From NCBI GenBank assembly GCA_902175065.1, contig CABIIJ010000010.1, positions 1 to 35,895 of the forward strand: a DNA stretch of 35,895 bases, given 5' to 3'. Below the pieces are notes generated by a model. The model was not told where the DNA came from. It searched no databases and saw only the letters and a list, made by a program, of their open reading frames with translations. The translations under genes and the position numbers were made by a program. Every line of letters begins with the position of its first letter. Position 1 is the first letter of the stretch. This document shows positions 4,088 to 13,780 of this stretch, in pieces. Source of the stretch: an uncultured Comamonas sp. (GTDB taxonomy: Bacteria > Pseudomonadota > Gammaproteobacteria > Burkholderiales > Burkholderiaceae_C).

Positions 4088-4133
4088 TGGTAGGGCGTGG
4101 CGGACTTGAACCGACGACCAAGGGATTATGAGT
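4088..4133 (-). pseudogene. Displaced 3' half of a CAU-anticodon tRNA gene
   Basis: Read on the minus strand this is the anticodon loop CTCATAA onward: stem TCCCT, variable loop, T arm GTCGG-TTCAAGT-CCGCC, acceptor ACGCCCT, A, CCA. No 5' half precedes it. Its acceptor and anticodon stem halves pair with the 5' half found 9.6 kb away at 13739-13780 (GGGGCGT with ACGCCCT allowing one G-U, and GGGGA with TCCCT). They do not pair with the intact tRNA at 13588-13664. The T stem carries one U-C mismatch (positions 50-64), so some decay is likely. Confidence 0.8.
4123..4133. repeat. Left attachment core of the integrated element
   Basis: GGATTATGAGT, the 11-bp direct repeat also found at 13739-13749. 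It corresponds to the anticodon loop and flank of the split tRNA gene. The two copies bound the inserted element. Confidence 0.7.
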
Positions 4134-4190
4134 TCGTCGCCAACGTGCTATACCTAGGAAAATCAAGCATAGGGGAGCGTAAGCTACAGA

Positions 4191-4228
4191 ACAAAAAAGT
4201 AAGCTGCGACAGTAGTTTAGCGCAGCTT
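4191..4228 (-). terminator. Terminator of the restriction-modification operon
   Basis: AAGCTGCG (4201-4208) pairs with CGCAGCTT (4221-4228). On the minus strand the hairpin is followed by a run of six T. It lies about 95 bp past the methyltransferase stop. Confidence 0.6.
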
Positions 4229-4253
4229 GGCGAAGGTGGGCAAAACTAGGCTC

Positions 4254-4271
4254 TGTACCGCTGGAGTACCG
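4254..4271. repeat. Left-end TGTACCG repeats, probable integrase arm sites
   Basis: TGTACCG at 4254 and AGTACCG at 4265 have an 11-bp period. The same heptamer with the same period occurs three times at the right end (13538-13566) next to the integrase gene. Matching spaced repeats at both ends of a tyrosine-recombinase element are what arm-type binding sites look like. Confidence 0.55.
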
Positions 4272-4323
4272 GCACTGACCTGCCCCCCGGGCGGCAGACT
4301 TTCTAAGTACATCCCTAATGCAG

Positions 4324-5556
4324 TCATCCTGGCCATCGCGCGGAAACGTCGTACTCGAAAAGCGCCTTGTTGCAGTTGCGTTTGCGTATGATCATCGAGG
4401 CTGCATCCTCGTATCCGAGCATCTGCATGGAGGCAGTCAGAATCGCCGGGGTATCGACCATGTTCCCGAAGAAGCTGGAATTCCCGACGATGTAATGAAG
4501 CTCCGCCCCCGGCTCCAGTACGTTCGGCAGCGATGACAAGTGCAGGTGCATGTCGTAGAAATACTTGAGCACGTAGGTCGCCATGAGCTGGGCATTCTTG
4601 CCATCGCTCTCCGCGATGCGTCCGACCGTATCAGTGAGAATTTCAGGAAGTGCCTTGCCGTTCGGTCCCCACTCATTGAGACGGCTTGTGGCGATCCCCC
4701 ACGTGCCGCCTATCGCCTTCCAATCCATCTCACCCGCTTCTCGGGCCTCTTCAAGAAACTTCATCCAGTACATGTACGGGCGAAGCTCTCTGATGTAGCT
4801 GATCCGGTTCGGATAGGGAGGCGAAGTCACAACAAGGCCAAAGCGCCGCCCCATTTCCGGAATAGCACGGGCATCCACCTCGACAACCTCCCCCAGACCC
4901 TGTAGCTGAGCACCGCTAGATGCAAGTATGGCATCGAGAATGGCCAGATACAGGTCTGTCACGTGCTCGACTTCGTGGTGTGTCGTCTCCGACGAAAACG
5001 ACATGGACACGTGATTGAACGCGGCTGCGGATGTCTCAATCACCAGCCGGCAGAAGGCGATCCATGCCAGACCGTCTGTTCGATCCTCTGCGGGCTCTCC
5101 GAATACTTCGACAAGTCCTGTTCGAAGCGCCGCTAGAACCTTGAGCGTACCGGCTGACCACCACCGCTCGATGTTGAACAACGGCGGTATCCAATTGTCT
5201 TTCTTCATCAAGGCTGGAATCCGCCCGATAGCCTGTTGGGCACCGTCTTGCACGAAGGCTAAGTGCTCAACCGAGTACGACCGACACTTCACGTTGCCAA
5301 GCCAAATCAAGAACGGGTTGATGTCGAACGAAAGCGCGGAATTGCCGTGCTCCGCCGCAGTAAGTGTCGTGGTCGCGGTCCCGGAGAACGGATCGAGCAC
5401 GGCAACATCAGCGGGGAATCTGGCGATAACTTCCTTCACCAGCTTCACAGAGTAGGCCGGCGTGAGCCGGAGCCAGCCGTGGCGTCCAAGCGACTTGTTA
5501 TGCTTGAACGTGAGGTCTGAGCGCTGCTTAACGGATTGACGGGTGACTTCAAGCAT
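4324..5556 (-). CDS. Type II DNA methyltransferase, amino group (N4-C or N6-A)
   Basis: S-adenosylmethionine-dependent DNA methyltransferase, predicted to protect host DNA from the endonuclease encoded just upstream. 410 residues. The SAM-binding motif LDPFSGTAT is at about 54-62 and the catalytic motif TSPPY at 244-248, in the order I then IV. The segment LTFKHN...GWLRLTPAYS before motif I resembles motif X. TSPPY is most common in cytosine-N4 enzymes but also occurs in adenine-N6 enzymes, so base type and recognition site are open. The ATG at 5556 lies inside the last codons of the endonuclease gene (8-nt overlap), so the two are translated together. Base composition looks lower in GC than the surrounding chromosome. 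Confidence 0.88.
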   Translation of the reverse strand: MLEVTRQSVKQRSDLTFKHNKSLGRHGWLRLTPAYSVKLVKEVIARFPADVAVLDPFSGTATTTLTAAEHGNSALSFDINPFLIWLGNVKCRSYSVEHLAFVQDGAQQAIGRIPALMKKDNWIPPLFNIERWWSAGTLKVLAALRTGLVEVFGEPAEDRTDGLAWIAFCRLVIETSAAAFNHVSMSFSSETTHHEVEHVTDLYLAILDAILASSGAQLQGLGEVVEVDARAIPEMGRRFGLVVTSPPYPNRISYIRELRPYMYWMKFLEEAREAGEMDWKAIGGTWGIATSRLNEWGPNGKALPEILTDTVGRIAESDGKNAQLMATYVLKYFYDMHLHLSSLPNVLEPGAELHYIVGNSSFFGNMVDTPAILTASMQMLGYEDAASMIIRKRNCNKALFEYDVSARWPG

Positions 5557-12418: not shown

Positions 12419-13513
12419 TCATGGATTTCCGGTCTTTTTCACCACCTGATCGAGCTTGCCCACCAAATCCTCCGCACGCAGATGGGTGTAGCGCTTGAGC
12501 ATCTGCATCGACTTGTGGCCGCTGATGGCCGCGACCTCCTGATCGGACAAGCCTGCTTCCACAAAGCGGCTGACGGCTTCGTGGCGCAGATCGTGAAAGC
12601 GGAAGTCCGGCACGCTGGCATCCTTCTTGATGCGCGTCCAGATCGGATTGAACTGGTAAGCCCGGCGCTTGTTGTCACGTCCAGGCTCACCGAAAAAGAT
12701 CAGGTCGGTATCAATGGGACGCACCGGGTTGTTCAGCGCCTCACGAAACAGCCGGGTTGCCTCGACCGTCAGGGGAACGGTACGCGACATCGTATTCTTC
12801 GTTTCCTGGAGGCGCACCACGCGCCGGTCAAGATCGACCTGGTTCCGGCGCAGGCCCGTAATCTCCGAAGAACGCATTCCTGTTTCAAGCGCGATGCGCA
12901 CGATCCAGCCGAGCATCGGGTTCGAGTGAGCATCGACCGCCGCCATCAGGCGGGTTTCTTCCTCTCGCGTGAGCCGTCGATCCCGTCCAGGGCTGGGCGC
13001 TGGACGGCGAATGCTTTGCACGGGGTTGTAGGTCAGGCCGATGCCCCATTCCTTGATCGCCACGTTGAACAGGTGGCCGAGTAATGCGAGATCGAGACGT
13101 ACCGTGTTGGGCGAACGGGGCTTGGGGGCTGGCTTGCCCTTGGCGTCCTTGCGATCCAGGCCAGCGAGCCGGTCGTCGCGGTACTTGGCGATCAGCTCCG
13201 GTGTCAGCGCGGCCAGCGAATACTTGCCCAGGTTCTGCATCAACGGCTTCGCGTGTCTCGCGTCGCTGTCGGCCGATGCCGGGCGCTTGGTTGGGGAGAC
13301 TTCGGATAGATAGCGCTTGAGCGCGTCCTCGATGGTCATGCGCTCGGACGGCGCACGTTGGATATAGACGCCGCGCACCATTTCGTCTTCGGTGCGCCGC
13401 GCCCAATCCTCGGCGTCGCGTTTGGTGCGGAAGGTCTTGGCTGTGGCCGGCCATCCCGTCTTGCGGATGAGCGCTTTCCACGTGCCTGAGGGTGTCTTGA
13501 CGATGGTCGCCAT
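12419..13513 (-). CDS. int: Tyrosine site-specific integrase
   Basis: Catalyses integration and excision of the element at a tRNA gene. 364 residues. An N-terminal arm-binding region (MATIVKTPSGTWKALIRKTG) and a core-binding SAM-like domain precede the catalytic domain with R214 (TGMR), K239, H307-x-x-R310, H333 (SGHK) and the nucleophile Y342 (LKRYTHL). All catalytic residues are present, so it looks active. The start ATG at 13513 gives the standard family N-terminus; upstream the frame runs through repeats and the tRNA. It lies next to the right-end repeats and the element-borne tRNA, in the orientation typical of tRNA-targeting elements. Confidence 0.92.
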   Translation of the reverse strand: MATIVKTPSGTWKALIRKTGWPATAKTFRTKRDAEDWARRTEDEMVRGVYIQRAPSERMTIEDALKRYLSEVSPTKRPASADSDARHAKPLMQNLGKYSLAALTPELIAKYRDDRLAGLDRKDAKGKPAPKPRSPNTVRLDLALLGHLFNVAIKEWGIGLTYNPVQSIRRPAPSPGRDRRLTREEETRLMAAVDAHSNPMLGWIVRIALETGMRSSEITGLRRNQVDLDRRVVRLQETKNTMSRTVPLTVEATRLFREALNNPVRPIDTDLIFFGEPGRDNKRRAYQFNPIWTRIKKDASVPDFRFHDLRHEAVSRFVEAGLSDQEVAAISGHKSMQMLKRYTHLRAEDLVGKLDQVVKKTGNP

Positions 13514-13537
13514 TCGGTTGCTCCAGAACAGGGCTCG

Positions 13538-13566
13538 TGTACCGCCACTGTACCGAAACTGTACCG
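13538..13566. repeat. Three TGTACCG repeats, 11-bp period, probable integrase arm sites
   Basis: TGTACCG starts at 13538, 13549 and 13560, each followed by a variable 4-bp spacer. The spacing is one helical turn. A matching pair lies at the left end of the element (4254, 4265). They fall between the integrase start and the tRNA, so they could also repress int. Confidence 0.65.
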
Positions 13567-13587
13567 ACGCGCCAGCGCAAGCAAAGA

Positions 13588-13664
13588 TGGTGGGCCCAGC
13601 AGGACTTGAACCTGCAACCAACGGATTATGAGTCCGCTGCTCTAACCAATTGAGCTATAGGCCC
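13588..13664 (-). tRNA. tRNA with CAU anticodon, probably tRNA-Ile2 (lysidine type)
   Basis: Complete cloverleaf of 77 nt including the encoded CCA. Acceptor GGGCCTA pairs with TGGGCCC (one G-U), D stem GCTC/GAGC, anticodon stem GCGGA/TCCGT around loop CTCATAA, T stem GCAGG/CCTGC around TTCAAGT. The CAU anticodon could mean elongator Met or Ile2. The consecutive pairs C4-G69 and C5-G68 are those recognised by TilS in E. coli tRNA-Ile2, favouring Ile2. It lies inside the element, between the integrase arm repeats and the right attachment core, and differs from the disrupted host tRNA. Confidence 0.9.
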
Positions 13665-13738
13665 TTTTTGCTTTTTTGATGGGGCGGAAGGGTGGCCGCC
13701 CCGCTCAATTCTGCCCCGCCGATCTGGCCTCGATCAGT

Positions 13739-13780
13739 GGATTATGAGTCCCCTGCTCTAACCAACTGAGCTAACGCCCC
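13739..13780 (-). pseudogene. 5' half of the split CAU-anticodon tRNA gene, with right attachment core
   Basis: On the minus strand: acceptor GGGGCGT, D arm GCTC-AGTTGGTTA-GAGC, anticodon stem GGGGA, loop CTCATAA, then divergence into non-tRNA sequence. Its stems pair with the orphan 3' half at 4088-4133. The attachment core GGATTATGAGT is 13739-13749. The sequence that follows inside the element (13665-13738) has no T arm or CCA, so this gene is not restored by the insertion. Confidence 0.78.

Follow-up and report, generated by a model that had tools for sequence, protein, structure and literature searches.

A Comamonas mobile element that appears to exchange the tRNA-Ile2 gene of its host for its own

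How can a bacterium remain viable when a mobile element has cut its tRNA-Ile2(CAU) gene, apparently its only gene for reading the rare codon AUA, in two? The question is raised by a 9.6-kb element lying between the two halves of such a transfer RNA (tRNA) gene in an uncultured Comamonas sp., on a 35,895-nucleotide stretch of contig CABIIJ010000010.1 that we analyzed as a whole (the window; assembly GCA_902175065.1, termed G000, 3.23 Mb in 103 contigs and 99.95% complete). We consider it very probable that the element recombined into the single host tRNA-Ile2(CAU) gene, cut this gene in two and supplies a complete foreign tRNA-Ile2, which we call a swap as opposed to an insertion that restores the host gene. 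What we observe is the anatomy of this arrangement, a single copy in the assembly, relatives whose intact gene is identical to the joined halves, and other hosts in which the architecture recurs around halves of their own.

The split host gene and the intact element tRNA

The core common to both host halves is exactly 11 bp long (ACTCATAATCC) and located in the anticodon loop (Table 1). Joined, the halves form all seven acceptor and all five anticodon-stem pairs, whereas mixed host and element halves form only four of seven and four of five, in agreement with a preliminary description of this DNA that had assigned both halves to one host tRNA on the basis of this pairing. The joined halves match the intact tRNA adjoining hrcA in G005 at 77 of 77 bases, as that description had predicted for relatives; of all relatives searched, G005 has the most similar HrcA (97% identity). 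The same intact tRNA sequence adjoins hrcA in G032 (L063), G028 (L065) and G021 (L071). A chance match of two halves is excluded.

Beyond the short core, the element sequence rebuilds neither a T arm nor an acceptor stem, as previously described, and the sole tRNA reported there by ARAGORN is a separate intact gene. An ordinary tRNA-restoring island, with the tRNA at 13588–13664 as the rebuilt host gene and the halves as duplicated attachment-site (att) fragments, would represent the usual mode of integration: 64 of the best 80 loci with a related integrase look so, and L091, near the clade of swaps, has a duplicate 3′ half 16 kb away. In the window, however, the two halves and core equal the intact gene of relatives, the intact tRNA differs from it, and mixed halves do not pair; we regard this reading as next to impossible. 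A regenerated tRNA at one junction with a displaced fragment is refuted by the half-to-half identity with G005. The host gene has thus been split and not restored.

The preliminary description had further taken a U-C mismatch in the T stem of the host half for a sign of decay. The identical 3′ side is found in intact relatives, so the mismatch is native and decay of the host half was rejected. A terminator-like hairpin lies beside the 3′ half, and similar hairpins, likewise read by eye, follow the 3′ halves in G018 and G003.

In E. coli, the element tRNA is best matched (84.4%) by a gene that has a CAU anticodon and is annotated as tRNA-Ile. C4-G69 and C5-G68, the TilS determinants of tRNA-Ile2, can be read from its sequence, as had been noted; together with the CAU anticodon and Ile2-type arms, they mark it as a predicted tRNA-Ile2. 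The host gene contains G4-C69 and C5-G68, as well as G1-U72. Because it has G4-C69 where the element tRNA has C4-G69, host TilS would have to accept both host-type and element-type pairs at 4-69. The best E. coli BLAST match of the host gene is a tRNA-Lys, and we assign it to Ile2 by elimination and because its sequence has a CAU anticodon within the anticodon arm GACTCATAATC. The element tRNA with its near flank shares 92.8% identity over 83 bp with tRNA genes of phiKZ-like phages.

A total of 58 tRNA matches was obtained for the G000 assembly. ARAGORN, run around these matches, reports as CAU tRNAs that of the element, two tandem elongator-type Met and two initiator Met tRNAs. A pattern search for Ile2 returned one intact copy, that of the element, and a third GACTCATAATC match falls in a stretch reading by eye as a transporter gene. 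The CAU tRNA count, which the preliminary description had proposed, hence found no second Ile2, and the element copy is the only one found in this assembly.

Table 1. Features of the element and of its host flanks (positions in the window)
Feature	Coordinates	Strand	Basis or remark
Terminator-like hairpin beside 3′ half	4039..4087	-	Sequence read by eye
3′ half of host tRNA-Ile2(CAU) gene, attL side	4088..4133	-	Core at 4123-4133 begins half
Type II DNA methyltransferase	4324..5556	-	PADLOC
Type II restriction endonuclease	5549..6370	-	PADLOC REase_II, 201 bits
MobC/NikA-like mobilisation accessory protein	6496..7098	-	Family profile matches
TrbL/VirB6	7900..8976	-	PF04610
Conserved small open reading frame (ORF) between VirB5 and TrbL/VirB6	9242..9733	-	No NCBIfam match
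VirB5	9733..10470	-	TIGR02791, 286 bits; PF07996
HTH_36/DnaD-like protein	11105..11953	-	Pfam on longer ORF 11105-12271; homologue L089:11570-12418; no NCBIfam match
Tyrosine integrase, 364 residues	12419..13513	-	PF00589, phrog_1
Repeat GGTACAGTTTCGGTACAG	13540..13570	-	In both swap and restore relatives read
Intact element-borne tRNA-Ile2(CAU)	13588..13664	-	ARAGORN; Rfam RF00005, 76.2 bits
Spacer between core and element tRNA	13665..13738	-	
5′ half of host tRNA-Ile2(CAU) gene, attR side	13739..13780	-	Core at 13739-13749 ends half
hrcA, host flank upstream of split tRNA	13836..14846	-	Sequence comparison with relatives

Swapping and restoring relatives of the integrase

Relatives of the integrase were collected by a scan of genome contigs, of which the best 80 of 374 were kept and read. 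They comprise nine swaps, 64 loci with an intact tRNA (42 Ile2, 20 Leu-CAA and 2 Lys) in which no half was found, and seven loci with no nearby tRNA. Host halves were sought by patterns for Ile2 and, in one scan, Leu-CAA only, so that swaps at other tRNAs (Lys, Phe, Thr etc.) would escape detection. Judging by their layout, the 64 loci appear to be restoring; L091, which is close to the swap clade, is the only restorer in the set of 80 confirmed by its duplicate 3′ half.

The nine swaps have one layout: a host-specific 5′ half, a spacer of 77–78 bp, a foreign intact Ile2, candidate arm-type repeats and the integrase. Their hosts are Lampropedia, Xanthomonas, Crenobacter, Pseudomonas, Marinobacter, Thiohalocapsa, Hydrogenophilus and two metagenome-assembled genomes. 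Exactly one intact Ile2 pattern match, located beside the integrase, was found in 10 of 10 genomes searched (the nine swaps and the restorer L091). A matching 3′ half is present in seven of the nine swap genomes, and each pairs 7/7 and 5/5 with the half of its own host; in three genomes it lies on the same contig, at about 11, 25 and 21 kb. The core-to-tRNA spacer, counted from the end of CTCATAA, measures 77–78 bp in 11 of 11 family members. Scored as possible decayed remnants of an ancestral 3′ half, five of 11 spacers reach 8/12 matches, a score equaled by 51–76 of 2000 shuffles; four of the five come from closely related members. The remaining six score an unremarkable 5–7.

The window and Lampropedia elements have 5.6 kb in common at 95.6% identity, the Lampropedia contig ending soon after. 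Common to the window and the Xanthomonas element are the integrase end, the attL end and the region of mobC; the methylase of the latter is a different one. Element sequences from the att sides of the window recur around host-specific halves in Xanthomonas and Crenobacter. The same intact tRNA is found with a closely similar spacer and integrase in Lampropedia and Xanthomonas, and the intact tRNA therefore travels with the element. The restorer L091 carries related VirB5, TrbL and MobC genes, from which it follows that both modes come with the same kind of cargo. On an integrase tree, the swap/restore label needs five changes, at least two of which are forced by well supported branches (quick method, no bootstrap), and the mode has probably switched more than once.

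We also surveyed a class-wide sample of 369 genomes, including that of the window, using an integrase threshold of E ≤ 1e-60 and searching for Ile2-type host halves only. The integrase is present in 25 genomes, and 29 loci were read: in 25 the integrase adjoins an intact tRNA, of one kind or another, in three there is no such tRNA, and one, L243 in G421, is an old swap. Its integrase is in two pieces, with an inside stop and a broken frame, and the anticodon loop of its host half is mutated. To all appearances, this swap has been fixed, and the foreign tRNA would be permanent. Among viral contigs the integrase gave 21 matches, four of which were inspected (two without upstream sequence); one, L270, is another swap.

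The hrcA-tRNA site in the genus

The hrcA site was compared in 53 genomes of the genus, 50 of which have hrcA and the tRNA on one stretch and were evaluated (G011, G033 and G082 were left out). Forty-five contain one intact tRNA, of a 77-nt type in 33 and a 79-nt type in 12. In the remaining five (G000, G003, G018, G034 and G035), a split native gene is followed by an element tRNA. On an hrcA tree of 43 of these genomes, the five are separate tips among unsplit ones, with some forks unresolved.

These genomes bear on the reading that two Ile2 genes stood in tandem in the host and one was split, the other being host DNA and the insertion neutral, for which it speaks that the host 5′ half and the intact tRNA are only ∼75 bp apart. 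Two intact Ile2 genes in tandem, which the preliminary description had named as an outcome that would refute it, were seen in 0 of 50 genomes over the stretch read after hrcA, and the same intact tRNA occurs with a similar spacer and integrase in Lampropedia and Xanthomonas. Tandem host tRNAs were rejected on the count in the genus, and we hold this origin to be exceedingly improbable. A swap at a single host gene is again the reading that we prefer.

All five split genomes retain an element Ile2, which is intact in four. ARAGORN reports the element tRNA of G034, which has one extra D-loop base, as cut short. In G003, the element tRNA (L171:465-801) contains a 258-nt insert between U33 and C34. 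A nested second element was rejected here, given the position of the insert at U33/C34, the tRNA fold of the exons and a match of the insert to the Rfam group I intron family RF00028 (E 9.9e-6, 29.8 bits, below the gathering score of 50). At the DNA level the insert would destroy the integrase core, yet splicing could preserve the tRNA, and it is possible that the insert acts as a shield against further integration.

G035, G003 and G034 each have an integrase of 437–465 residues ∼1 kb from the attL 3′ half; these share 24–27% mutual identity and have weak or undetectable similarity to that of the window. G018 has only a shorter integrase (237 residues) inside the element. If these integrases made the insertions, as we presume, then very distant integrases would have converged on swapping at the hrcA-tRNA site.

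Ten genus genomes, including G005, carry extra Ile2 3′ sides, amounting to 12 extra matches, seven of which were read. All seven are without a 5′ half: restoring insertions would explain six of them, and the seventh is the attL of the G034 swap. In G010, an intact tRNA is followed by a member of the integrase family of the window. The 79-nt Ile2 at the native site is scattered on the hrcA tree (L060, L061, L069, L070, L072, L073, L084, L085 and others among its 12 genomes). Both G018 and G034 have an element tRNA similar to this type, that of G018 being identical to the native tRNA of G030 and G025. Completed swaps or homologous recombination could account for the distribution of the 79-nt type. 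In G035, a homologue of the toxin RnlA (RNase LS; L168:567-1646) is encoded ∼100 bp after the element tRNA. The same genome contains two successive attL-like 3′ halves (G035:C6:66576 and 77355; L225), the outer one with an element end of the window type, GTTGGCGACAAACTCATAATCC, which points to a tandem of two elements at a single tRNA.

Mechanism, cargo, precedents and host range

The integrase would recombine the attP core with the 11-bp anticodon-loop core of the host gene next to hrcA. As read from the junctions, attP would lack a matching 3′ half, and for this reason the host gene is cut in two. The element tRNA would sit between the core and the putative arm sites, where restorers keep a tRNA 3′ half, and integration would put it after the split half, ∼75 bp downstream and with the same orientation; in all swap cases read, we find it downstream of the host half and so oriented. 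The complete foreign tRNA-Ile2 that the element brings along between core and integrase would keep the host viable, and, as the host gene is not rebuilt by integration, the element tRNA would have to replace the host tRNA. This scheme presumes that Ile2 is essential, that the element tRNA is expressed, from the host promoter or a weak element promoter, and that host TilS would modify it with lysidine. A hexamer scan of 13500–13900 found no promoter-like site, in the spacer and upstream of the host half alike; a looser scan of 14 loci reached up to 9/12 in some spacers and up to 10/12 upstream of some host halves. Precise excision would presumably rebuild the host gene, and a swap would hence be reversible, while loss of the integrase or decay of a half would make it permanent, as L243 suggests. 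The earlier claim that the element is hard to lose holds only in part, since precise excision should re-form the host gene: dependence on the element tRNA would counter deletion or decay and not integrase-mediated excision.

Several points weigh against this scheme. By pattern, the attL partner was not found in two of the nine swap genomes (G061 and G068), nor was a free attP found in viral contigs. In the genus loci compared, the phosphatase on the left flank of the window could not be located next to the tRNA, so that the empty site is documented on one side, that of the tRNA and hrcA. As another contig of G005 contains an additional Ile2 3′ side, this genome probably harbors a restoring insertion and does not represent a clean empty site, and its intact gene may itself have been restored; G032 and G021 have the same intact gene with a single Ile2 match each. 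tRNA-Ile(GAU) and tRNA-Ala(UGC) were not found in the G000 tRNA lists, because of which the rRNA operons are probably unassembled, and an assembly gap could hide a tRNA gene. Finally, there is no AUA among the 3,073 codons of the six ORFs that we took to belong to the host. tRNA-Ile2 is in general known to be essential, and with AUA so rare it is this general knowledge on which its essentiality here is based. The codon count would also fit a real swap in an AUA-poor genome in which Ile2 is dispensable and the element tRNA a passenger. All nine swap genomes of the integrase family, however, have exactly one intact Ile2 match, that of the element, and all five split genus genomes keep an element Ile2 (in G003 with the group I intron-like insert), which makes a passenger tRNA very unlikely in our view. 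We therefore retain replacement of the host tRNA as the preferred reading.

The GGTACAGTTTCGGTACAG repeats may represent arm-type integrase sites, and the HTH_36/DnaD-like protein is possibly replication-initiator-like. Neither a relaxase nor a type IV secretion system (T4SS) ATPase was detected among the element ORFs scanned (small ORFs were not all included), and the element thus does not resemble an autonomous integrative and conjugative element (ICE); it may be a mobilisable or remnant element. No phage structural genes were found among the family matches of the element ORFs scanned, the PHROGs scan covering the integrase only. Small elements with VirB5-like and TrbL/VirB6 genes, some with MobC, and with no relaxase or T4SS ATPase in the ORFs scanned, recur in the window (6496–10470), L089, L091 and L094, as if donating subunits to the conjugation machine of a helper. 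SGI1 provides a comparison for elements that supply such subunits. An ordinary flavin mononucleotide (FMN) riboswitch is located at 19213–19401 of the window.

The principle of a swap is already known from actinophages, with notes on Pasteurellaceae ICEs and rhizobial insertions; all reports cited here are drawn on in excerpt. The preliminary description was right to call the insertion unlike usual tRNA integration, but the mode of the insertion had already been described (PMC10865867, PMC6028734). tRNA-dependent lysogeny of actinophages includes Ile2-CAT (Guerrero-Bustamante and Hatfull 2024, PMC10865867); the excerpts cite prophage Lj965 and state that prevalence outside actinobacteriophages needs more work. 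As in the window, related integrases may restore instead (PMC10865867), a tyrosine integrase is involved, the core is short (11 bp here), and the halves stay separate with no functional tRNA rebuilt from them. In contrast to actinophages, the hosts here are proteobacterial, and the window element, by its scanned ORFs, is not a temperate phage and carries VirB5/VirB6/MobC-like and restriction genes. Its tRNA lies beside the core at a nearly constant distance; the tRNA of Fionnbharth, by contrast, overlaps gene 37, and a promoter of its own has been demonstrated (PMC10865867).

In Pasteurellaceae ICEs, an intact copy brought by the ICE takes the place of a disrupted tRNA-Leu (Beker et al. 2018, PMC6028734), and the attL end is described as maintaining a complete tRNA (Bhatt et al. 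2019, PMC6861422), with the speculation that use of the anticodon loop widens host range (PMC6861422). These are conjugative elements with a 10–13-nt anticodon-loop core (PMC6028734, PMC6861422); they differ in using tRNA-Leu(UUG) rather than Ile2, and the excerpts compare no swap and restore relatives. In phage-related sequences of Sinorhizobium meliloti, an inactivated host tRNA is substituted by an isoacceptor in the insert; the insert tRNAs resemble those of unrelated species, some inserts are genomic islands, and the CAT tRNAs, named Met or fMet, could include Ile2 (PMC11476347). There the hosts are alphaproteobacterial and the tRNA genes are mostly in prophages (0.82 versus 0.18 in islands; PMC11476347). 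No such mode was found for phiLM21-like prophages in the excerpts of PMC12429752. Islander-type islands likewise have a tyrosine integrase and a crossover in the anticodon loop, but Islander seeks a regenerated tRNA and its fragment (PMC4383910), whereas a swap leaves two fragments and a foreign tRNA; swap islands are presumably missed by such restoration-based finders. Neither Ile2 swapping by proteobacterial mobile elements nor a comparison of swap and restore modes with host range was found in the open-access literature searched.

We then compared host ranges. Integrase pairs that are at least 85% identical cross family or higher boundaries in 9 of 9 swap pairs versus 0 of 197 restore pairs, when the seven loci without nearby tRNA, L091 and mixed pairs are dropped (six of the 197 involve an unknown genus within the same family). 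Clusters spanning families amount to 2/2 for swaps and 0/8 for restorers at both 85% and 90% (Fisher p 0.022) and to 2/2 and 0/10 at 95% (p 0.015), and the contrast vanishes at 80% (1/1 versus 4/7); here the seven loci were dropped, L091 counted as restore and an unknown family was replaced by the order. Pseudomonas and Alcaligenaceae are oversampled, only the best 80 of 374 relatives entered the set, and the vehicle of transfer may be a different one in swappers; that swappers cross families and orders and restorers do not is a small-sample sign and a lead. A swapper could cross orders and classes, as it needs only the conserved anticodon-loop core, while a restorer must match the 3′ half of the host tRNA. 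Carrying an essential tRNA might accordingly be a host-range strategy that allows moves between orders or classes and permanent horizontal tRNA replacement, and the patchy 79-nt type at the hrcA site could trace completed swaps; we advance this tentatively, as a possibility with somewhat less than even chances.

What appears to be new is swapping by an element family that does not look phage-like, in several proteobacterial orders, that close relatives of its integrase appear to restore the tRNA, and that four further swaps, three with very distant integrases, are found at the same hrcA-tRNA site within one genus. Swapping is thus met in beta- and gammaproteobacterial elements in which no phage structural gene was found. 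In swappers and their apparently restoring relatives, nature offers a paired system in which it can be tested for what reason elements carry tRNAs, and our findings suggest that essential tRNA genes can be replaced horizontally.

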